Below, one piece after another: positions 3,708-59,720 of a DNA stretch of 64,000 bases. How positions within the stretch are numbered: position 1 is the stretch's first letter; the number at the start of each line of letters is the position of its first letter. Source of the DNA: Acidobacteriota bacterium (GTDB taxonomy: Bacteria; Acidobacteriota; Thermoanaerobaculia; UBA5066); NCBI GenBank assembly GCA_029781975.1, contig JAKOVQ010000046.1, forward strand, positions 1 through 64,000, in the 5' to 3' direction. The notes beneath the pieces were generated by a model that had not been told where the DNA came from, ran no database searches, and worked only from the letters and a program-made list of their open reading frames with translations. Position numbers and translations under genes: made by a program.

Positions 3708-4817
3708 ATGCCTCGCCCCGAGGGGCGCGACCGCCTCGAGGGGGCGGCAGGGGAGGACGGCAGCCTCGTCCTCCTCTCGCGCGTCGGGAAGCCCTGGGCT
3801 CCCCGGACGGAGGGGCCCGGGGCCCCCCGTCCGGGGACGGCCGTGAGGTGGGAGGACCAGCTCTACGAGGTCGTCTCCGCCGAGGTCCGGGCCTCCGGCG
3901 GGTGGCGCTACGTCCTCGCCCCGTGGGACGAGAGGGCGATCGTCCGGACCTTCGTCACGTACGGCGCGACCGCGGCGGCCGGGGATGAGGCGGCGCCCGA
4001 GGCCGCGCGGATCCCGCCTGCTTCGGCCCCGGATCCCGCCCCCGCCCCGGCCCCCGCTCAGAGCCCGGCCTCGACCCCGGCGACCCCCGCGCCTTCGCGC
4101 GCCGGCGGGCTCCGCGCGGCCTGGCAGAGGCTTCCGGAAACGTCGCGGATCCTCCTCGTCGGCGCGGCGCCGACGGCCCTCCTCTGGTGGTTCCTCCCGG
4201 TCCGCGTCATGGGCGAGGGGATGTCGTTCTTCGTCCACGAGCTCGGCCACACCGCCGCCTCGTGGCTCTTCGGGCGCTTCGCCCTGCCGGCGGTCGTCGT
4301 GACGATCGCGTTCCAGCAGAACCGGGCGGCGGCGGCGCTCATCTGGGCCCTGATCGCCTTCGCCGCGATCCGCCTCAGGAAGGTCCGCGGCTGGGGGCTG
4401 GGTCTCGCCGTCGCCGCGGCGGCCTATCCGGTCCTCGCGTTCACGCCCGCCCACGAGACGGTCTTCGACCTGGCGGGACACGGCGCCGAGATCGGGGTCG
4501 CCGCGTGGTTCCTGAGGAGGGCCGTCCGCGGCGGCTGGTTCGCCGAGTGGGAGCGCCCCGTCTCCGCGATGCTCGCCTTCTGGCTCTGGTTCCGGAATGC
4601 CCGCCTCTTCGCCGGCCTCGTCTTCAGCGCGGCCGCCCGGACCGACTACCTGACCGTCTCGTTCGCCGACCGGAACGACCTCGTGAAGGTCGCGGAGTCG
4701 CTCGGCCTCCGTCTCGAGGCGGTCGCGCTCGGCTGCCTCGTCGTGGCGCTCGCCGTACCGGCCCTCTCGCTCGCCCTCGCGCTCCGGTCCCCCCGGGAGG
4801 CGGAAGCCCCGGGCTGA
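3708..4817 (+). CDS. Integral membrane protein with HELGH zinc-protease motif
   Basis: The 369-residue protein has three parts. Residues 1-90 are soluble and contain VRWEDQLYEVV and a WRYVLAPWD segment. A Pro/Ala-rich linker covers about residues 92-130. From residue 148 there is a set of membrane helices. HELGH at 177-181, preceded by GMSFFV, is the HExxH zinc motif in a transmembrane context, as in M50-type peptidases. A HETVFDLAGHGAE segment further on could offer a third ligand. No classical M50 NPDG motif is visible, so protease activity is inferred from the motif and topology alone. It starts 17 bases after pepD and is probably co-transcribed with it. Confidence 0.7.
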   Translation: MPRPEGRDRLEGAAGEDGSLVLLSRVGKPWAPRTEGPGAPRPGTAVRWEDQLYEVVSAEVRASGGWRYVLAPWDERAIVRTFVTYGATAAAGDEAAPEAARIPPASAPDPAPAPAPAQSPASTPATPAPSRAGGLRAAWQRLPETSRILLVGAAPTALLWWFLPVRVMGEGMSFFVHELGHTAASWLFGRFALPAVVVTIAFQQNRAAAALIWALIAFAAIRLRKVRGWGLGLAVAAAAYPVLAFTPAHETVFDLAGHGAEIGVAAWFLRRAVRGGWFAEWERPVSAMLAFWLWFRNARLFAGLVFSAAARTDYLTVSFADRNDLVKVAESLGLRLEAVALGCLVVALAVPALSLALALRSPREAEAPG

Positions 4818-4847
4818 CCCCTGCTCGGCGTCCTCACACCCGCCTTG

Positions 4848-4853
4848 TAGACT
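4848..4853 (+). promoter_or_regulatory. Candidate -10 (TAGACT) of a leaderless mutL transcript
   Basis: TAGACT ends 9 bases before the GTG start and there is no Shine-Dalgarno sequence, so transcription would begin at or next to the start codon. No consensus -35 is seen. The same spacing recurs at many genes in this window. Confidence 0.4.
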
Positions 4854-4862
4854 GCCCGGGCC

Positions 4863-6668
4863 GTGCCGCGCGTCCAGGTCCTCCCCGGCCCCCTCATCGA
4901 CCAGATCGCCGCCGGCGAGGTGGTCGAGCGCCCCGCGTCGGTCGTCAAGGAGCTCGTCGAGAACGCCCTCGACGCCGGGGCGACGGCCGTGACGGTGGAG
5001 GCCGACGGAGGCGGCGTGGCCCGGCTCGCCGTCTCCGACGACGGCTGCGGCATGGAGCCGGAGGACGCCCTCCTCGCCCTCGAACGCCACGCCACGTCGA
5101 AGGTCCGGACGCTCGACGACCTCGTCCGGGTTGCCACTCTCGGCTTCCGGGGTGAGGCCCTCCCCTCCATCGCCTCGGTCTCGCGGCTCGTCCTGACGAC
5201 GAGCCCGGACGGGTCCGGGCTCGGCTCGGAGGTCGTCGCGGAACGGGGGGGGGCGCCTCGCCTCCGCCCGGCTCGCCACCCGATGGGGACCCGCGTCGTG
5301 GTGGAGGACCTCTTCGGCAACGTCCCGGCGCGCCGGAAGTTCCTGAAGAGCCCGGAGGCCGAGCTCCGGGCGATCGCCCGCACCGTCACCGCCCTCGCCC
5401 TCTCGCGCCCGGACGTCCTCTTCGTCCTCCGGAGCGGAGAGAGGGAGCTCCTTCGCCTCGCACCCGCCCGGGACGCCGGCGTGAGGCTCGCGGAGGTCCT
5501 CGGGCGCGACGCGGCCGGGCGGATCGTCCCGGTGGTTTTCTCCTCGCACGGCCTCTCGCTGGCCGGCGCGGTGACCGCGCCCGGGTTGACGTACGCCTCG
5601 CGCGCGCACCAGTGGCTCTTCGTCAACGGCCGCGCCGCGCGCGACGCGACCGCGCAGCACGCCGCGCAGCTCGCCGCGCGGGAGGCGCTCCGCGACGACC
5701 GGTTCCCGGGCTTCGCCCTCTTCCTCTCCTCGCCGCCGGAGGCGTGCGACGTGAACGTCCACCCCCAGAAGCACGAGGTGAGGTTCCGCGACCCAGGGGC
5801 GGTCCACTCCGTCGTCCACCGCGGCCTCCTCGCCGCGCTGACGGCCGGGAAGGGGGCCGAGGAGCTCCGGGGCGACCTCCTCCGCGTCCCCGTCCCCGTC
5901 GAGGCGGGCTGGGGCGCCGGGGCCCCGGCGTCCGGCACCGCGGCGTCGGCCCTCGCCGAGACGCTCGGGGCGTGGGGCGAGGGAGCCTTGCTCCCCGCCC
6001 CGGCCGCCGGGGCGGCGCGCTCGTCGTACGCGGCGTCGGCTTCGGCGGCCGTCGAGAGCGGGTCCCCCCTCGGGGCCCTCCGCCTCCTCGGCCAGTACCG
6101 CGACTCCTACCTCCTCGCGGAAGGGGAGGACGGGCTCGTGGTCATCGACCAGCACGTCGCCCACGAGCGGGTCCGCTACGAGCGGATCCGGGCCGCGCTC
6201 GACTCCGCGACAACCGCCTCGCAGGCGCTCCTCGTTCCGGAGACGTTCGAAGCGTCCGTCGAGGAGGCGGCGGCCTTCGAGCGGGCCGAGCCGCTCCTCC
6301 TGGCCGCGGGGTTCGGCGTCGCCGCGCTCTCGGGCCGCCTTCTGGCAGTCACCGCGGCCCCGGCCTCTCTCCCGGCGGCCGCCGCGGTCCCCGCGCTCCG
6401 CGAGTTCCTGAACTCCCTCGCGGCCGTGCCGGAGGGCGCGGGAACCGCCGGCTCGGCCGCCGAGCGAGCCAGGGACGCCCTGGCCGCCTCCATCGCCTGC
6501 CGGGGCGCCGTCACCGTCAACCGCCGCCTCGCCCCGGAGGAGGCCACCCGCCTCCTGACCGACCTGGTCGGCTGCCGGGACCCCTACACGTGCCCGCACG
6601 GGCGGCCCATCTTCCTCACGCTCGCGCACGGCGAGCTCCTCAAGCGTTTCCGGAGGACCACCGGGTGA
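4863..6668 (+). CDS. mutL: DNA mismatch repair protein MutL
   Basis: This 601-residue MutL has the GHKL ATPase N-terminus with IDQIAAGEVVERPASVVKEL and ENALDAGA (catalytic Glu30). A low-complexity linker covers about residues 330-395, followed by the C-terminal dimerisation/endonuclease region. Asp429 begins DQHVAHERVRYE, matching the DQHA-x2-E-x4-E nuclease motif with Val in place of Ala. ACRGAVTVN and CPHGRP (from Cys577) are also present. The protein is therefore of the nicking endonuclease type expected in organisms lacking MutH. The start is GTG. Its stop overlaps the start of the next gene (GTGA). Confidence 0.95.
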   Translation: MPRVQVLPGPLIDQIAAGEVVERPASVVKELVENALDAGATAVTVEADGGGVARLAVSDDGCGMEPEDALLALERHATSKVRTLDDLVRVATLGFRGEALPSIASVSRLVLTTSPDGSGLGSEVVAERGGAPRLRPARHPMGTRVVVEDLFGNVPARRKFLKSPEAELRAIARTVTALALSRPDVLFVLRSGERELLRLAPARDAGVRLAEVLGRDAAGRIVPVVFSSHGLSLAGAVTAPGLTYASRAHQWLFVNGRAARDATAQHAAQLAAREALRDDRFPGFALFLSSPPEACDVNVHPQKHEVRFRDPGAVHSVVHRGLLAALTAGKGAEELRGDLLRVPVPVEAGWGAGAPASGTAASALAETLGAWGEGALLPAPAAGAARSSYAASASAAVESGSPLGALRLLGQYRDSYLLAEGEDGLVVIDQHVAHERVRYERIRAALDSATTASQALLVPETFEASVEEAAAFERAEPLLLAAGFGVAALSGRLLAVTAAPASLPAAAAVPALREFLNSLAAVPEGAGTAGSAAERARDALAASIACRGAVTVNRRLAPEEATRLLTDLVGCRDPYTCPHGRPIFLTLAHGELLKRFRRTTG

Positions 6669-7579
6669 ACCGCGACCTCTTCGGGCAGAAGCTGGGGCTG
6701 ACGCTCCCGCTCTGCGGGTTCCACTTCGTCTTCTTCTTCCTCTCCGTCATGGACCCCGCGAAGACACGGGCGCTCTTCGGCTTCTTCCCGGAGACGCCCT
6801 TCGCGAACCCCTGGGGCTTCGTGACCTACCAGTTCCTCCACGCGGGGCCGCTCGGGCTCTTCTTCGGGGCGTTCATGCTCTGGATGCTCGGCTCGGCGCT
6901 CGAGGCCGAGTGGGGGACCGGCCCCTACGCCGTCTTCTGGCTCGTGGCGACGCTCGGCGGCTCGCTCTCGGCCTGGGCCGTCGGGACGCCGCTCCTCGGA
7001 GACCCGTTCGTCGTCCCGATCTCGATGCTCTTCGCCTTCGCCTACCTCTTCCCCGACACCCAGTTCCTCATCTTCTTCGTCATCCCGGTGAAGGTGAAGT
7101 GGCTCGCCTGGCTCAGCGCCTTCCTCCTCGTCGCGGCCTTCGTCGTCGACCTGACGACGCGCGGCGTCGGGACCGCGCTCGTGAGGATCGTCGGCGCCTC
7201 GGCCGGCTTCGTCTGGTTCTGGGTCCGCGAGCAGGGGCGGTTCAAGGCGCGCAAGGCCGCCCGGGAGGCGGTGACCGCCGTGAAGACCGCGCAGGCGGTC
7301 CGCGAGGACACGTCCCTCGAGCGGCGCAACCGCGAGCTCTTCCCGAAGGTCGAGGCCCTCCGGTCCGCCCAGAAGGCGGGGCTGCCGCCGCCGTCCGGGG
7401 GCGCGGAGCTCCCGGCGCACCTCCAGAAGCTCGTCGTCCCCGGCGTCAACATCTGCAAGCCCGTCGACTTCAAGGGCGACAAGGACCTCGTCTGCCTCCG
7501 GTGCGAGGGGTTCGCGGAGTGCTCGCTCCGCTACCTGGCCGGCAAGCCGGACGAGATCGTCGTCCGCAAGCGCGAGTAA
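6665..7579 (+). CDS. Rhomboid-like membrane protein, catalytically degenerate, with Cys-rich tail
   Basis: The 304-residue protein begins with about six membrane helices (residues 12-187). The segment GFVTYQFLHAGPLGLFFG at 51-68 matches the early rhomboid fold, followed by a LGSALEAEWG turn. However, the serine position reads PISM (Ser120) rather than GxSG, and RIVGASAG stands where the catalytic His should be. It is therefore probably a pseudoprotease. A coiled soluble region follows, then four cysteines at 264, 277, 280 and 286 in a pattern suitable for metal binding. It overlaps mutL by 4 bases (GTGA), so translation is coupled. The fold call is moderate and the function unknown. Confidence 0.65.
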   Translation: MNRDLFGQKLGLTLPLCGFHFVFFFLSVMDPAKTRALFGFFPETPFANPWGFVTYQFLHAGPLGLFFGAFMLWMLGSALEAEWGTGPYAVFWLVATLGGSLSAWAVGTPLLGDPFVVPISMLFAFAYLFPDTQFLIFFVIPVKVKWLAWLSAFLLVAAFVVDLTTRGVGTALVRIVGASAGFVWFWVREQGRFKARKAAREAVTAVKTAQAVREDTSLERRNRELFPKVEALRSAQKAGLPPPSGGAELPAHLQKLVVPGVNICKPVDFKGDKDLVCLRCEGFAECSLRYLAGKPDEIVVRKRE

Positions 7580-7590
7580 ACTCCGCCGCC

Positions 7591-8124
7591 ATGAGCCTGG
7601 CCGCCGCGCTCGTCGTCCTCGCGTGGCTCTCCGCGACGCCTCCCGTCGCCTCCGTCCCGCCGCCCCCGGGCGGGACCTACGAGGAGGCGATCACGAAGGT
7701 CGTCACCGCCCGCGCGCAGAAGGAGATGAAGGCCCTCGTCGCGGAGCTGGAGAAGGACCCCTCCCAGCCTCCGGCGTTCAAGGCCGACGTCAAGAGGAAG
7801 CTCGCGCGGCTGAAGGTCGCCGTCTACACGACGCCGAAGAGCTTCGAGGAGACGGTGGCGTTCTACGAGGCGTCCCCCCTCCGGCCGTTCTTCCTCAAGG
7901 GGGACCGGGACCTCCTGGCCGACCTGAGGGAGAACGCCGAGGCCCTGGGCACCTCCGTCGACCCCGCCGCCGAGAAGGCGTGGGCGGGGAAGGCGGGCCG
8001 GACCGCCCGCTGGACCCGGGACGACAACGGCCTCCAGATCACGGTCGAGGACCACCTGATCGACCCGCGCGACGGCTCGGTCACGAAGAAGACGGTGGTC
8101 CTCGTCACCTCCCTCGACGACTGA
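7591..8124 (+). CDS. Secreted hypothetical protein
   Basis: This 177-residue protein has a short hydrophobic N-terminus (about residues 2-22) that ends in a Pro-rich segment and looks like a signal peptide. The rest is charged and mostly helical (TYEEAITKVVTARAQKEMKA), with a beta-rich C-terminus. I recognise no family. A TAAACT hexamer at 7577-7582, overlapping the previous stop codon, ends 8 bases before the ATG. The gene may be read through from mutL or start as a leaderless transcript. Confidence 0.6.
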   Translation: MSLAAALVVLAWLSATPPVASVPPPPGGTYEEAITKVVTARAQKEMKALVAELEKDPSQPPAFKADVKRKLARLKVAVYTTPKSFEETVAFYEASPLRPFFLKGDRDLLADLRENAEALGTSVDPAAEKAWAGKAGRTARWTRDDNGLQITVEDHLIDPRDGSVTKKTVVLVTSLDD

Positions 8125-29141: not shown

Positions 29142-29774
29142 TCAGGGGGCGGGAGGCTCCGGCGGGACGGGCCGGTCGGGGAGCTCCGGGGCGGGGCTCC
29201 CGTCGAGCCCGAGGGCGTCGGCGATCGGGACCTGGGAGGCGAGGACGAGCGAGACGAGGTCCGCGAGCGGGACCCCCCACTCCTCCGCCCCCTTCAGGAC
29301 GTAGGAGCGGTCGACGGTCCGGGCGAACGACTTCTCCTTGAGCCTCTTGAGGACCGACTCCACCGGCACGTCCGCGATCCTCTTCGAGGGGCGGACGAGC
29401 GCGCAGGCGCCGACGAAGCCGGTCAGCTCGTCGGCGGCCAGGATCGCCTTCTCCATCGGCGTCTCGCGGGGGATCCCCGTGTAGAACGCGTGCCCGCCGA
29501 TCGCCTTGACGAGGTCCTCGGGCCACGCGCGCTCCCGGAGGATCTCCATCCCGCGAAAGACGTGGTCCTCCTCGGTCGGGTAGCGCTCGTAGTCGAAGTC
29601 GTGGAGCATCCCGACGAGCCCCCACCGCTCGACCTGCGCGGCGTCGTTCACCCCGGACGAGCGCGCCAGGTGGCGCATGGAGGCCTCGACCGCCAGGGCG
29701 TGGCGCCGGAGGGCCTGCGAGGCGGTGAACTCGGTGAGGAGGGCCCAGGCGTTCTCGCGGGTCGGCTCGGTCAT
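29142..29774 (-). CDS. HD-domain hydrolase
   Basis: The 210-residue protein has an HD-type helical metal-site pattern: RRHALAVEASMRHLA near residue 21 and LVGMLHDFDYERYP near 49 with the His-Asp pair. ILAADELTGFVGA near 110 supplies a third acidic site. HD proteins are metal-dependent phosphohydrolases acting on nucleotides or RNA. The Pro-rich tail (last 20 residues) is probably disordered. TACCAT ends 6 bases before the ATG. The substrate is unknown. Confidence 0.78.
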   Translation of the reverse strand: MTEPTRENAWALLTEFTASQALRRHALAVEASMRHLARSSGVNDAAQVERWGLVGMLHDFDYERYPTEEDHVFRGMEILRERAWPEDLVKAIGGHAFYTGIPRETPMEKAILAADELTGFVGACALVRPSKRIADVPVESVLKRLKEKSFARTVDRSYVLKGAEEWGVPLADLVSLVLASQVPIADALGLDGSPAPELPDRPVPPEPPAP

Positions 29775-29872
29775 GGCCCAATGGTAGCCGGAGGCGACGG
29801 CGCGGCCGCGAGCCGGGCCGGGCGCGGCTGCCCGGGCGTCCCCGGCCTCCACGGACCGACCCGGGGGCGGGC

Positions 29873-29893
29873 GGATCCGACAAGGACGTCGGA
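29873..29893 (+). promoter_or_regulatory. Dyad site 1, possible activator binding site
   Basis: GGATCCGAC-N4-ACGTCGGA contains the inverted repeat TCCGAC-N6-GTCGGA. It matches site 2 at 30044-30064 in 17 of 21 positions. It lies about 300 bases upstream of the sigma-54-type -24 element. Confidence 0.5.
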
Positions 29894-30043
29894 AACCGGC
29901 GCGAGGCGACAACCCTGTCGGGTCGCTGCCGGGTCGCCCGTCCGGACGTCCCCCCCCGGCGCCCCGGTGACGAGGGATTCCCCCGGTCCGGCCCGTCCGG
30001 TCGCCCGGCCGGGAGCCCGGGCCGGAGAGGCGACCGTCTTCCG

Positions 30044-30064
30044 GGATCCGACGCCCACGTCGGA
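30044..30064 (+). promoter_or_regulatory. Dyad site 2, possible activator binding site
   Basis: This second copy of GGATCCGAC-N4-ACGTCGGA has different inner bases (GCCC instead of AAGG). That pattern suggests selection for the arms rather than a recent duplication. It lies about 125 bases upstream of the -24 element, a usual enhancer distance. TTTT follows the dyad, so a terminator-like role is the alternative. Confidence 0.5.
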
Positions 30065-30181
30065 TTTTCGGCGCAGTCCTTCGAAAATGTAACCCTTCCC
30101 GGGAGTCCCCGGACGCCGGACGGCGATGACAAATCGTTCGCCCGGAGCGACTTGATCCCGGGGGCGCGGGAGCGCGCTCCC

Positions 30182-30195
30182 GGCACCCGTCTTGC
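30182..30195 (+). promoter_or_regulatory. Sigma-54-type (-24/-12) promoter of glnA
   Basis: CGGCACCCGTCTTGCGC has the GG of the -24 box at 30182-30183 and the GC of the -12 box at 30194-30195, exactly 10 bases apart as RpoN requires. GGCAC and TTGC are consensus; the flanking T and A/T are not. The start of transcription would be near 30207, giving a 105-base leader. Confidence 0.55.
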
Positions 30196-30311
30196 GCACA
30201 GAATCGGAAGGCCGGGTCCCCCGCGGTCCCGGCCCGCCGGACGGCTCCGGCCCGGACGAGAGGACCTCACCCGCACGACCAGAACCCGGAACGGAAGCGA
30301 GAGGAGAAGGA

Positions 30312-31724
30312 ATGACCCCGAAAGAAGTGATCGAGTTCATGAAGGCCCAGGGAGCGAAGGCGGTCGATTTCAAGTTCAACGACTTCCTCGGGATCTGGCA
30401 GCACTTCACGACGCCGCCGAACGAGATCGAGGAGTCGGTGTTCGAGGAGGGGCTCGGCTTCGACGGGTCGTCGATCCGCGGCTGGCAGCCGATCCACGCC
30501 AGCGACATGCTGGTCATGCCCGACCCCGACACCGCGGTCATGGATCCGTTCACCAAGGACCCGACTCTCTCCCTCATCTGCAACATCGTCGACCCCATCA
30601 CGCGCCAGGAGTACAGCCGCGACCCGCGCAACATCGCGCGCAAGGCGGAGGCCTACCTCAGGTCCACCGGCATCGGCGACACCGCGAACTTCGGCCCCGA
30701 GCCCGAGTTCTTCATCTTCGACGACATCCGCTACGGGCAGGACCAGCACAGCGGCTTCTACTTCCTCGACTCGATCGAGGGGCAGTGGAACACCGGGCGC
30801 GACGAGAAGCCGAACCTCGGCTACAAGCCGCGCTACAAGGAGGGCTACTTCCCGGTCCAGCCGACCGACAGCCAGCACGACATCCGCCAGGAGATGGTCC
30901 TGACGATGGAGCAGCTCGGCTACCACGTCGAGCGGCAGCACCACGAGGTCGCCACCGCCGGCCAGGCGGAGATCGACATGCGGTTCCTGCCGCTCGTGAA
31001 GATGGCGGACGCGCTGATGTGGTTCAAGCACGTCTGCAAGAACGTCGCGCACCGCAACGGCAAGACCGTCACCTTCATGCCGAAGCCGGTCTTTGGAGAC
31101 AACGGCAGCGGCATGCACGTCCACCAGAGCATCTGGAAGGGGGGCAAGCCCCTCTTCGCGGGCGACGGGTACGGAGGCATGAGCGAGCTGGCGATGCACT
31201 ACATCGGGGGGATCCTCAAGCACGCCCCCGCCCTGGCCGCGTTCACGAACCCGTCGACGAACAGCTACCGCCGGCTCGTCCCGGGCTTCGAGGCCCCGGT
31301 CAACCTGGCCTACTCCAGCCGGAACCGGAGCGCGGCGATCCGGATCCCGATGTACAGCCCCAGCCCGAAGGCCAAGCGGATCGAGGTCCGCTTCCCCGAC
31401 CCGACCGCGAACGGGTACATCGCCTTCGCGGCGATGCTGATGGCCGGCCTCGACGGGATCCAGAGCCGCCTCGACCCGGGCCAGCCGCTCGACAAGGACA
31501 TCTACTCGCTCAGCCCCGAGGAGCTGAAGGACGTGCCGGGGATGCCCGCGAGCCTCGACGAGGCCCTCGGGAACCTGAGGAAGGACCACGAGTTCCTCCT
31601 CAAGGGCGACGTCTTCACCGAGGACGTGATCGAGACCTGGATCGACTACAAGATGTCGGCCGAGGTCGCCGCGATGCGCCTCCGCCCGCACCCGCACGAG
31701 TTCGCCCTCTACTTCGACGCCTGA
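30312..31724 (+). CDS. glnA: Glutamine synthetase type I
   Basis: The 470-residue enzyme has [10 protein letters not shown] near residue 52, FGPEPEFF near 127, [12 protein letters not shown] near 264, [13 protein letters not shown] near 315 and NRSAAIRIP near 338. It condenses glutamate and ammonia to glutamine in the cytosol as a dodecamer. Tyr398 in [11 protein letters not shown] aligns with the adenylylated tyrosine of GSI-beta enzymes, so activity should be controlled by covalent AMP. That fits the convergent glnE-like gene. GAGGAGAAGGA precedes the ATG. A sigma-54-type promoter lies upstream. Confidence 0.97.
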
Positions 31725-31788: not shown

Positions 31789-34700
31789 TCAGGCCAGGAG
31801 CCGCGCCGAGAGCTCCTGCACGGCGGCGGCCGCGTTCGTCATCTCCTCCTTCAGCCGGGCGACGTCGCTCCCGTAGGTGAGGCGGCGGGCGAGGTACGAG
31901 AACTCCTCGCTCCCGTACGGGGGGATCGTCACGTCGCGCGCGTTGCCGCGGACGACGCGGAGCGCCTCGACGAGGCTCCTGAGGAACGACTGTGCGGCGA
32001 CGAGCCTCTCGTGGTCCTCGGTCCCCAGCCTCCCGGCGGCCGCCAGGCCGGCCATCGCCTCGCGGGTGTTGGCGCGCCGGACGCCCGGGTCGTCCCGGCC
32101 GTGGCGCAGCTGGAGGAGCTGGACGAGGTACTCCACGTCGACGAGCCCCCCCGGGCTGAACTTCGGGTTGAAGGTGCCGCCGGCCACCAGCTGCCTCACC
32201 TGCTTCTCCCGCATCGCGCGGATCGAGGCGACGTCCGGCGGCTCGCCCTCGTAGACGAGCGCGTCGCGCAGGGAGACGAGCCGGCGCCCCAGCTCCGCGT
32301 CGCCGGCCAGGGGCCTCAGCCGGATCAGCGCCTGCCGCTCGTAGTCCCAGGCGGGTCCCCCGCGGGCGTAGTAGCGGCGGAACGCGTCGAGGGAGACGGC
32401 CATGCTGCCGGCGCCGCCGTAGGGCCGGAGCCTGAGGTCGATCTCGAAGACCCCTTCCCGCCTGGACCGGATCGCCGCGACAAAGGACCTCACGAGGCGC
32501 TCGAAGTGCTCGGCGTTCGTCAGGCGCTGGGGGCCGTCGGTCTCCCCTTCCCCCTCGTAGACGAAGAGGAGCTCGATGTCGGACGCGAAGCCCATCTCGC
32601 GGCCCCCCGCCTTGCCGAGGGCCGAGACCGCCATGGGACAGGGGGACCCGTCGACGAGCCGCGGCCGGCCGTGCGCGGCGACGAGCTCCCGCTCGCACTC
32701 CTCGAACGCGGCCTTGACGACGATCTGGGCGAGGTCGGAGAGCTCCTCGCCGAACTGGGCGATGTCGGCGGTGCGGCCGAGGATGTGGCGCATGTCGATC
32801 CGGAAGAGCTCCCGGTCCTTGAACGCGTTCAGCGCGTCCCGCCACGAGGCCGCGCCGGCGGCCTCCGGCTCCGCCGTCCTCCCGTCCCCGGAATCCCCCC
32901 CGGCCTCCCGCGCGGAGCGGATCGCGGAAGCGAGGTCGCGCTCCAGCTCCGCGGCCGGCCGGGGGGCCGCGAGGACGTCGACGTCCTTGACGATCGGGAA
33001 GAGGTTGGCGTGCTGCATCCTCAGGAAGTCGAGCCAGAGGAAGTCGCTGACGCCCAGGAGCCGGGCGAGGGCCTCGAGCACCTTCGGGCTCTCGAGGGAA
33101 GCGAGCTCGTCGGGCCAGTCGGGCCGCGCGAAGAGCTGGCCGAGGAAGTCCCCGAAGTGGAGGAGGGCCGACTCCGGGTTGGGGGAGCGGGGGAGGATGT
33201 GCGTGAAGTGCTTGATCAGGACCGTCGCGGCGCGCAGCTCCCGCAGCCGCGCGGGGGAGGTGATCTTCGCCCCCGAGGCGTCGGTCACCCAGAGCGTGTC
33301 CCGCACCCGCATCCCGGCGGACGCGGCGGTCAGGCGCCAGATCGAGACCTTCCCGAGGGCGAGGGCGTTCGTCAGCTCGTAGAGGAAGCCGGTGGTGTCG
33401 GGGGCGTCGATCCTGAGGACCGTGTAGCCCCCGGAGCCCTCGTTGTCGATCTCGATGTCGACGGGGTAGAGCGGCGTCGCCGCGACGGCGAGCGCCTGCT
33501 GGGTCAGCGCGGCGCGGCGCGCGATCTCGCCGCGCGCCTCCCGGTGGCGGCCCTGTCTCACGAGCCGGAAGAGGACCTCGAGGTCCTCCTCGAACCGCTT
33601 CCACGGGTCGGAGAGGGCCTCTCCCCGCAGGGGGCGGACGGTGAAGACGTCGACGAGCTTGCGGCGCGGGTCGGGGCGCCCCGCCGCGGGAGCCGGGACC
33701 GCCGGGCGCGGCCGCCCGGTGAACGGATCGACCGCCCGGCCCCGCTCCGCGCGCCGCGGTGGGGGCTCCTCCGGCGCCGCGACCGGCTCGTACGTGAAGG
33801 CCTCGCCGTGCAGGATGCTGAACCCGTTCGCGTAGAGGAGCCCGCAGATGAGGGACAGCTCTCCCGGGAAGTCCCAGCCGACGATCGTCACGCGCCAGAG
33901 GCCGGGAGGCTCCGGGGTGGCGTCGACCGCCACCAGCCGGCTCTCGTCGAGCCGGTCGGCCAGCTGGGCGTGGCGGCGGATGTCCTCGTCGCCGAAGGTC
34001 TCGGCGTACGACGGGTCCATCCGCGCCGCGTGCTCCTCCGCCCGCGGGCGCTCCGCGGAGGGCGCCTCTGGCCGTTCGGCCGCCGCCGTCCCCGCACCGC
34101 CTCCCAGGTGGCGCAGGTAGACGGCCCTCACGGCGGCCGTGTGCTCGCGGTACCGGGCGAGGAAGCGGGCGCCGGCCCCCTCTCCCTCGAACCCGAGGCG
34201 GCGGGCCAGCGCGTCGAGCGCCGCCTCGTCGTCGGGGAGGGTGTGGGTCTGGCGGTAGTGCATCACCTGAAGGTGGTGCTCGACGGTCCGGAGGAAGACG
34301 TAGCCCTCCTCCAGGACGCGGCCGTCGTCGGCCGGGAGGACGCCGGCGGCCTTCAGCCGCGCGAGCGCGAGCCGCGTGTTGCCGCTCCGCACCTCCGGGC
34401 GCGCCCCGCCGTGGGCGAGCTGCAGGAACTGGGCGACGAACTCCACGTCGCGGATCGAGCCCTCGCCGAGCTTCACCTCCGACGCGGCGAGGCCCTTGCG
34501 GCGGACCTCCCGCTCGGTCAGCTGCCTCATGGCCCGCACCTCGGCGCGCACCGTCTCGGCGCTCGTCGTGAAGAGGAGCGGCTCGACCCCTTCGAGCCCC
34601 TCCGAGGCCGCGCCCAGGTCGCCGGCCACGGGGCGGGCCTTGAGGAGGGCCTGCTTCTCCCAGAGCCGCGCGTGCCGGGCCATGTAGCCCTGCCACGCCT

Positions 34701-35580
34701 CCACCGAGCTGACGAGCGGCCCGGCGTCGCCCCACGGGCGGAGCCGCATGTCGACGCGGTAGAGGAAGCCCTCCGCGGTCGGGCGCCCGAGCGCCTCGAT
34801 GAGCCGCTCGCCGAGCTTCCAGTACGCGGGGGCGTCGGCGCGCGCCAGGAAGAGGAGGTCGATGTCCGAGCTGTAGTTCAGCTCGCGTCCCCCCAGCTTC
34901 CCCATCGCGACGACCCCGAAGCCCGAGGCGTTCCGGCCCGACTCCCGCTCGGCGACGGCGAGGGCGGCTTGGACGAGGCCGTCGGCGAGGCTCGACAGCT
35001 CGACGGTGACCGTCTCGAGGTCGAACAGGCCCAGGAGGTCGCTCGCCCCGATCCGGAGGAGCTCGAGCCTCTGGTAGCGCCGGAGGGCGTCGAGGTCCTC
35101 CTCGACCGAGCCCCGGCCCGGGAGCGCCCGCCGGGCCTCGGCCGCGACCTGCGCGGCCGGCTTGCGCGCGGCGAGGCGCCGGGGCTCCACGAGGCGGGCG
35201 AAGGAATCCGGGTGCCGGAGGAGGATCTCCGAGAGGAAGCGGCTCCCGGCGAAGAGGGTGACGAGGATCTGGACGGCGCGCGGGTGCTCGCGCAGGTGCC
35301 GGAGGAGGGTCGTCCGGTCCGGAACGCTCTGGAGGAACCGGTCGAGGGCGACGAGGACGCCGTCGGGGCCCGCGGCCTTCGCGAGCGCCGAGACGAGGTG
35401 CGGGAGGACGCCCGCCAGGGCGAGCCGCTCGGGCGGCCCGTGGGCCATTCGCCGAAGGGTGACGTGCGCCGCGCGCCAGTCGGCGAACCCGGCGGGCGCG
35501 AGGAGCCGGCGCACCTCCTCGTCCGCCTCCGCCTCCGGCGCGAAGAGGACCCGCGCGGTCTCGTGGGCGTGACGGGTCAC
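31789..35580 (-). CDS. glnE: GlnE-type glutamine synthetase adenylyltransferase/deadenylylase with internal ACT pair
   Basis: This 1263-residue protein is about 300 residues longer than typical GlnE (about 950). The N-terminal half has MGKLGGRELNYSSDIDLLF (Asp239, Asp241) and YRVDMRLRPWG (Asp277). The C-terminal half has LGKAGGREMGFASDIELLF (Asp1001, Glu1003) and EIDLRLRPYGG (Asp1048). Between them lie two ACT-like segments: LWRVTIVGWDFPGELSLICG from residue 561 and GYTVLRIDAPDTTGFLYELT from 718. A Pro/Arg-rich loop and a DVFTVRP strand separate them, the layout of the glutamine-sensing end of GlnD. The enzyme should add or remove AMP on GlnA Tyr398 in response to glutamine. Asp-to-Glu at 1003 is odd. 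The GTG start has TATGAT 9 bases upstream. Confidence 0.88.
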   Translation of the reverse strand: MTRHAHETARVLFAPEAEADEEVRRLLAPAGFADWRAAHVTLRRMAHGPPERLALAGVLPHLVSALAKAAGPDGVLVALDRFLQSVPDRTTLLRHLREHPRAVQILVTLFAGSRFLSEILLRHPDSFARLVEPRRLAARKPAAQVAAEARRALPGRGSVEEDLDALRRYQRLELLRIGASDLLGLFDLETVTVELSSLADGLVQAALAVAERESGRNASGFGVVAMGKLGGRELNYSSDIDLLFLARADAPAYWKLGERLIEALGRPTAEGFLYRVDMRLRPWGDAGPLVSSVEAWQGYMARHARLWEKQALLKARPVAGDLGAASEGLEGVEPLLFTTSAETVRAEVRAMRQLTEREVRRKGLAASEVKLGEGSIRDVEFVAQFLQLAHGGARPEVRSGNTRLALARLKAAGVLPADDGRVLEEGYVFLRTVEHHLQVMHYRQTHTLPDDEAALDALARRLGFEGEGAGARFLARYREHTAAVRAVYLRHLGGGAGTAAAERPEAPSAERPRAEEHAARMDPSYAETFGDEDIRRHAQLADRLDESRLVAVDATPEPPGLWRVTIVGWDFPGELSLICGLLYANGFSILHGEAFTYEPVAAPEEPPPRRAERGRAVDPFTGRPRPAVPAPAAGRPDPRRKLVDVFTVRPLRGEALSDPWKRFEEDLEVLFRLVRQGRHREARGEIARRAALTQQALAVAATPLYPVDIEIDNEGSGGYTVLRIDAPDTTGFLYELTNALALGKVSIWRLTAASAGMRVRDTLWVTDASGAKITSPARLRELRAATVLIKHFTHILPRSPNPESALLHFGDFLGQLFARPDWPDELASLESPKVLEALARLLGVSDFLWLDFLRMQHANLFPIVKDVDVLAAPRPAAELERDLASAIRSAREAGGDSGDGRTAEPEAAGAASWRDALNAFKDRELFRIDMRHILGRTADIAQFGEELSDLAQIVVKAAFEECERELVAAHGRPRLVDGSPCPMAVSALGKAGGREMGFASDIELLFVYEGEGETDGPQRLTNAEHFERLVRSFVAAIRSRREGVFEIDLRLRPYGGAGSMAVSLDAFRRYYARGGPAWDYERQALIRLRPLAGDAELGRRLVSLRDALVYEGEPPDVASIRAMREKQVRQLVAGGTFNPKFSPGGLVDVEYLVQLLQLRHGRDDPGVRRANTREAMAGLAAAGRLGTEDHERLVAAQSFLRSLVEALRVVRGNARDVTIPPYGSEEFSYLARRLTYGSDVARLKEEMTNAAAAVQELSARLLA

Positions 35581-58973: not shown

Positions 58974-59720
58974 CTACGTCGCCTTCCCCTGGGCCGCCAC
59001 CGCCGCCGCCGCCTTCCTCGCCGCCTCGGCGTCGCCGAGGTAATAGTGCTTCAGCGGCTTCAGGTCGTCGGTCAGCTCGTAGACGAGGGGGATCCCGGTC
59101 GGGATGTTCAGGCCGACGATCTCGTCGTCGGAGACCCCGTCGAGGTACTTCACCAACGCGCGGATGCTGTTGCCGTGGGCCGTGATCAGGACCCGTCTCC
59201 CCGACGCCACGTCGGGGGCGATCGTCCCCTCCCAGTACGGGACGAAGCGGGCCACGGTGTCCTTGAGCGACTCGGTCAGCGGGAGCTCGGCGGCCGTCAG
59301 CGCCGCGTAGCGCGGGTCGCGCCCGGGGTAGCGCTCGTCGTCGGGGGCGAGGGGGGGCGGGGGCGTCGAGTAGCTTCGCCGCCAGACCTTGACCTGCTCC
59401 TCGCCGAACTTCTGCGCCGTCTCGGCCTTGTTCAGCCCCTGGAGGGCGCCGTAGTGCCGCTCGTTGAGACGCCAGCTCCCGACGACCGGGAGCCACACCT
59501 GGTCCAGCTCGTCGAGGGCGAGCCAGAGGCTCCGGATGGCGCGCTTCAGGACCGACGTGTAGGCGACGTCGAAGGCGAAGCCCTCTGCCCGGAGGAGCCG
59601 CCCCGCCTCGATGGCCTCGGTCCGTCCCTTCGCGGTCAGGTCGACGTCGGTCCAGCCGGTGAAGCGGTTCTCGAGGTTCCACTGGCTCTCGCCGTGTCGC
59701 AGCAGCACGAGCTTCTTCAT
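58974..59720 (-). CDS. gpmA: 2,3-bisphosphoglycerate-dependent phosphoglycerate mutase
   Basis: The 248-residue enzyme has [12 protein letters not shown] (phospho-His in RHG near residue 8), [16 protein letters not shown] preceded by [16 protein letters not shown] near 86 and [17 protein letters not shown] near 181. It interconverts 3- and 2-phosphoglycerate in glycolysis. All active-site motifs are intact. The C-terminal tail is Ala-rich. It precedes the hydrolase-methyltransferase on the same strand but with no functional link seen. Confidence 0.96.

Follow-up and report, generated by a model that had tools for sequence, protein, structure and literature searches.

Tandem dyads upstream of glnA as putative enhancer sites of a NifA/AnfA-type sigma-54 regulator of ammonium assimilation in an Acidobacteriota genome

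Which regulator would act on the glutamine synthetase gene of this acidobacterium? Within the stretch of 64,000 nucleotides analyzed here (the window), the original prediction had described, upstream of glnA, two copies of a dyad with different inner bases and a -24/-12 promoter, and had read the dyads as enhancer sites for a sigma-54 activator other than NtrC, perhaps a nitrogen regulator not yet characterised. The sequence GGATCCGAC-N4-ACGTCGGA is indeed present twice without mismatch, at 29873-29893 (inner bases AAGG) and 30044-30064 (inner bases GCCC), and GG at 30182-30183 and GC at 30194-30195 stand at -24/-12 spacing within CGGCACCCGTCTTGCG. While both dyads were exact as described, their partners had been missed, one at 29905-29922 and a weak one at 30077-30094. 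The features of the region are listed below.

29142..29777, minus strand: HD-domain-like ORF, named by inspection
29876..29893: dyad 1a, TCCGACAAGGACGTCGGA, strong, exact dyad of the distal enhancer pair, centre at about -322 from the predicted start, matrix score 18.3
29905..29922: dyad 1b, GGCGACAACCCTGTCGGG, 29 bp after 1a, matrix score 14.8
30047..30064: dyad 2a, TCCGACGCCCACGTCGGA, strong, exact dyad of the proximal enhancer pair, centre at about -151, score 16.2
30077..30094: dyad 2b, TCCTTCGAAAATGTAACC, weak partner of 2a at 30 bp, score 7.3 (9.2 with a matrix from relatives only)
30181..30196, plus strand: sigma-54 -24/-12 promoter, CGGCACCCGTCTTGCG, predicted transcript start at about 30207
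30312..31724, plus strand: glnA, glutamine synthetase, 470 aa, from translation
31789..35580, minus strand: ORF resembling glnE (glutamine synthetase adenylyltransferase), 1263 aa, named by inspection

The HD-domain-like ORF, which extends to 29912 in the ORF list and whose start at 29777 was chosen by inspection, is divergent from glnA and shares the intergenic region with it; the glnE-like ORF is convergent with glnA. The nearest named record for GlnA, at 90% identity, is from Thermoanaerobaculia, a class of Acidobacteriota (MAG L050). Beyond its own family the closest records are named Deltaproteobacteria (75-79%), and at 87% identity or more the protein was found in 3 of 14 same-family genomes, the own genome included, which is a patchy distribution. 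An Rfam search of the window gave no match, and an RNA element was dropped as a reading.

With the matrix from the own genome as well as with that from relatives only, dyads 1a and 1b formed the best tandem match in the window, and with the latter matrix dyad 1a was also the top match. The same relatives-only matrix placed 2a and 2b second, so that the two glnA pairs ranked 1 and 2 in the 64 kb (24.1 and 16.1) and the next tandem scored 6.8. Taken alone, the site at 30077-30094 is not convincing. The best symmetric form of the dyad is TCCGAC-N6-GTCGGA. The promoter at 30181-30196 has the GG-N10-GC arrangement. When the 531-bp region was shuffled 300 times, its score, computed with a sigma-54 consensus that was not fitted, was reached 0 times. 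A dyad-like single site, GCCGACGATCTCGTCGTC, lies at 59112-59129 of the window and has no partner.

A genome-wide search, one of the checks suggested originally, covered 5,374,075 bases in 54 contigs (96% complete) and returned exactly two copies of the perfect 12-base dyad, both in front of glnA. A refined form, TCCGACANNNNTGTCGGA, occurred with up to two mismatches at 14 places compared with 3 for the reversed control, and its only one-mismatch copies were the two at glnA and amt2. The two amt genes of the genome, C14:23568-24869 and C15:28362-29540 (on contigs C14 and C15), each have a one-mismatch dyad upstream. Scanning of four upstream regions gave start-to-start distances within dyad pairs of 29 bp at glnA, 30 bp at amt1, 30 and 30 bp at amt2, and 30 bp at the gene of an enhancer-binding protein (EBP) located beside an amt gene; the second glnA dyad has its weak partner at 30 bp. 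Among the 24 own sites with at most one mismatch, a partner scoring above 7 at 29-31 bp was found for only 4 (glnA twice, amt1 and amt2), all noncoding, and the best partner score at the others was 2.2. No pair was found in the scored upstream regions of the own glnA2 and of glnA2 in the relative G005. A genome-wide search that allowed three mismatches in a tandem CGAC/GTCG pattern at 30 bp yielded 3759 matches, mostly coding by inspection, and the background swamped the signal.

Palindromes can arise by chance in GC-rich DNA, and some of the counts would agree with such an origin: with up to three mismatches allowed, the long pattern is no rarity (3 copies against an expected 1.26), and the single dyads with one mismatch lie mostly in coding sequence. 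Against this stand the exact copies, the 30-bp pairing and conservation in held-out genomes. A matrix built from 11 own sites was used to score 20 regions upstream of the EBP, amt or glnK-amt, and glnA genes of eight other genomes of the same family (including G001 and G003, which had already been inspected by eye before scoring), with a pair distance of 29-31 bp and 500 dinucleotide shuffles. Pairs were present in 17 of the 20 regions, 16 of them with 0 of 500 shuffles and G001 amt1 at 0.010; none was found upstream of G003 amt, G012 EBP or G002 glnA. The spacing profile showed a single sharp peak at 30 (mean 17.4, compared with at most 6.8 at all other spacings from 19 to 49), and the observed consensus is CCGACA-N4-TGTCGG. 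The dyads are thus conserved upstream of the genes of relatives, as had been proposed for checking, and this conservation refutes the chance reading, to which we assign next to no probability.

Among 65 other intergenic regions of the same loci, 62 scored below 10. The remaining three scored 16-18 and precede a BBP2 porin gene or glnD inside amt/glnA clusters; we read them, after the fact, as further regulon members. Searching 60 relatives for the full long pattern with one mismatch gave scattered single matches only and was too strict, because what is retained in relatives is the core with the pairing, not the full sequence; a near copy of the long pattern was seen in G025 (L208), whose amt has no pair. 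Several further observations concern these clusters. A BBP2-type porin (PF07642) recurs beside amt-glnK or glnA (L199:7058-8155, L190:10427-11638, L201:4903-6102 and L322/L323 near 6904-8066), in several genomes with a 30-bp dyad pair of its own, and perhaps serves small nitrogen compounds. A dyad pair also lies upstream of glnD (PII uridylyltransferase) of G001 (L199:8155-8470), and signal processing may therefore be part of the regulon. Short direct repeats of the type GAGGCCTCG precede glnA of G003 (L201, about 4600-4880).

Both rpoN and enhancer-binding proteins, the latter with 41 domain matches, are present in the genome, as the original prediction required. The candidate activator is the EBP encoded at G000:C15:29823-31355 (G000 being the source genome), on the same strand as the amt gene at C15:28362-29540 and just upstream of amt-glnK. 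The protein of 511 aa has GAF, AAA+ and Fis-type HTH domains, which is the domain order of NifA, and no receiver domain. Its best family is TIGR01817 and its best solved structure 9qq6, both along the whole protein, and it is about 42% identical to annotated NifAs. Three orthologues scored 502.0, 510.1 and 479.7 bits against the TIGR01817 equivalog, below the cut-off of 528.85. A NifH profile search of the genome found nothing over cut-off, and nif genes as targets were accordingly not found. The NtrC profile search of the 96% complete genome gave a best score of 430.1 bits, compared with the curated cut-off of 558.6, in agreement with the view that the activator is not NtrC. The recognition-helix pattern of this protein was present in 47 of 49 EBPs of the family; of the 41 EBP domain matches in the own genome, 30 loci were examined and 1 had the pattern. 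Of 100 genomes searched, 26 from two families, counting the own genome, had an orthologue (E<=1e-110).

In the second family the EBP is 53-54% identical and is unlinked to glnA or amt; in G027, for example, EBP, glnA and amt lie at three distant places of one contig. The perfect core CGACA-N4-TGTCG was nevertheless present in 8 of 10 second-family glnA upstream regions (those of L258 and L263 being without it), which is evidence in trans for the link between the EBP and the sites. By reading of the sequence, these glnA dyads (L255-L262) are mostly 32 bp apart with the partner upstream, which is still near three helical turns; the amt genes of G024 and G027 have pairs at 30. Several second-family EBP upstream regions were weak, and that of G039 had no pair. 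Scoring of 10 promoters from relatives without the activator (amt of G010, with an upstream region of only 57 bp, and of G014, G015, G016, G017, G018, G020, G025 and G026, together with G057 glnA) found no tandem above 7.7, consistent with the proposal of a separate nitrogen regulator.

Given the 41 EBP-domain matches, many of them with receiver domains (NtrC-model matches starting at position 1 or 2), another EBP of the genome could bind the dyads, for instance a response regulator of the NtrC type, and the GAF-type gene would then be merely a regulated neighbour, which would carry sites too. We consider this unlikely. The sites track this EBP, being absent from the 10 amt/glnA promoters taken from relatives that lack it, and they persist where EBP and amt/glnA are unlinked; the best NtrC score stays at 430 bits against 558.6, and the half-site geometry matches that of AnfA/VnfA, which are relatives of the GAF-type EBP.

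Across the phylum, the EBP (E<=1e-125) was found in 112 of 396 genomes. From these loci, 40 around the EBP were chosen to spread over genera, and since L337 had no EBP match at the 50% limit, EBP upstream counts use 39. On 24 of the 40 stretches, amt, glnK, glnA or glnD was present. In 17 of 39 loci the 300 bp upstream of the EBP contained a tandem of at least 16, compared with 1 of 855 background windows, and the other 22 scored below 16; the spacing peaks were 30 and 31. Among neighbouring genes, tandems of at least 16 preceded Amt1 in 5/10, Amt2 in 2/9, GlnA in 3/6, GlnK2 in 2/8 and BBP2 in 2/2 cases, and GlnK1 in 0/8 and GlnD in 0/6 (L303 GlnA and L330 GlnK2, genes running off their stretch, are left out). 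GlnK1 directly follows amt in these loci. The enhancer-site reading thus gains from the 30-bp pairs conserved in relatives and phylum-wide, and from the same dyads standing before both amt genes and before the NifA-like activator gene by amt-glnK.

The promoter type divides these genes. With the same unfitted consensus, 18 of 21 upstream regions of targets had a sigma-54 site at p<=0.05, as against 0 of 9 for the EBP; the own amt1 site reads TCGCAC instead of TGGCAC. At glnA and amt the -24/-12 element follows the pair, and in the cases compared the distance is about 80 bp or more. The first dyad at the own EBP gene begins 58 bp ahead of the start codon, and of the 17 pairs at phylum EBP genes, 14 have a second dyad whose end precedes the approximate start by 9-68 bp. 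Given a pair near the EBP start codon and no sigma-54 site there, repression is probable at this gene, while the targets would be activated. Sites that hug a start codon in this way would also suit operators of a classical repressor, or of a regulator independent of sigma-54, overlapping the nitrogen genes. We regard such operators as very improbable, as pairs upstream of -24/-12 elements at glnA and amt have the geometry of enhancers and not of operators, and the linked, conserved regulator is itself a sigma-54 activator.

The reading that we prefer, and hold to be very likely on these comparisons of sequence, is that a NifA/AnfA-type one-component sigma-54 regulator of ammonium assimilation uses the dyads as tandem upstream activating sites. 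Pairs of EBP dimers would occupy dyads spaced by about 30 bp, close to three turns of the helix, and would form the active oligomer under nitrogen limitation. Through looping, the oligomer would then open the sigma-54 promoters in front of glnA and both amt genes; in relatives the targets would extend to glnK-amt, glnD and the BBP2 porin. At its own gene, whose start codon is no more than about 60 bp from the pair, the EBP probably represses. GlnK/PII or 2-oxoglutarate would control the EBP through its GAF domain. Binding, activation, autorepression and this control are what we infer from the arrangement of sites and genes. The tandem pairing, the likely identity of the regulator, the AnfA/VnfA-like half-site geometry and the probable autorepression had not been foreseen in the original prediction.

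Acidobacteriota are abundant soil bacteria, and in the open-access literature (subscription papers lying outside the scope of the search) we found no report of a described nitrogen regulator or ammonium-assimilation switch in them, nor, in the open-access literature, of an AnfA/VnfA-type system used for ammonium assimilation. In many members of the phylum, ammonium assimilation seems to be under the control of a NifA-like activator. Somewhat more speculatively, in much of the phylum a one-component activator of the NifA/AnfA clade might replace NtrB-NtrC, sensing nitrogen via PII and the GAF domain, and control of ammonium assimilation would perhaps be an old role of the clade. In the present genome, in which no NifH was found, glnA and amt are assigned to a NifA-like protein, and the operator, the regulator and the target list together make a directly testable regulon.

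In enteric bacteria the NtrC enhancer of glnAp2 is a pair of adjacent dyads in front of a sigma-54 promoter of glnA, and NtrC also has sites at its own gene. The present system resembles it in the paired dyads before a sigma-54 glnA promoter and in the sites at the regulator gene, and differs from it in that the candidate has no receiver domain, no NtrC exceeds the cut-off, and the dyad is CCGACA-N4-TGTCGG whereas that of the NtrC type is TGCACC-N5-GGTGCA. NifA is the candidate's best family and best structure (about 42% identity), but the candidate scored 502 bits against the required 528.85, the genome has no NifH over cut-off, and the dyad differs from the NifA consensus, TGT-N10-ACA. AnfA of Rhodobacter capsulatus is reported to recognize the dyad TAC-N6-GTA, with two sites in the anfH promoter (PMC7294313), and VnfA1 (VnfA, Azotobacter vinelandii) GT(T/A)C-N6-GTAC, mostly as two motifs at similar spacing (PMC9542535). 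The likeness covers a GAF-AAA+-HTH activator working with sigma-54, AC-N6-GT geometry and two sites per promoter; the paired AC-N6-GT core is found here, and TACA-N4-TGTA forms occur in AT-richer acidobacterial loci. Unlike in the AnfA/VnfA sites, the G half-site (GAC-N6-GTC) dominates in this genome, and the AnfA/VnfA targets are alternative nitrogenase and related genes, whereas here they would be glnA, amt-glnK, glnD, the porin and the regulator itself. Because of the AC-N6-GT operator geometry, the NifA-like protein below its cut-off and the lack of NifH or NtrC over cut-off, we file the predicted system as an enhancer system of the AnfA/VnfA type that would serve ammonium assimilation.
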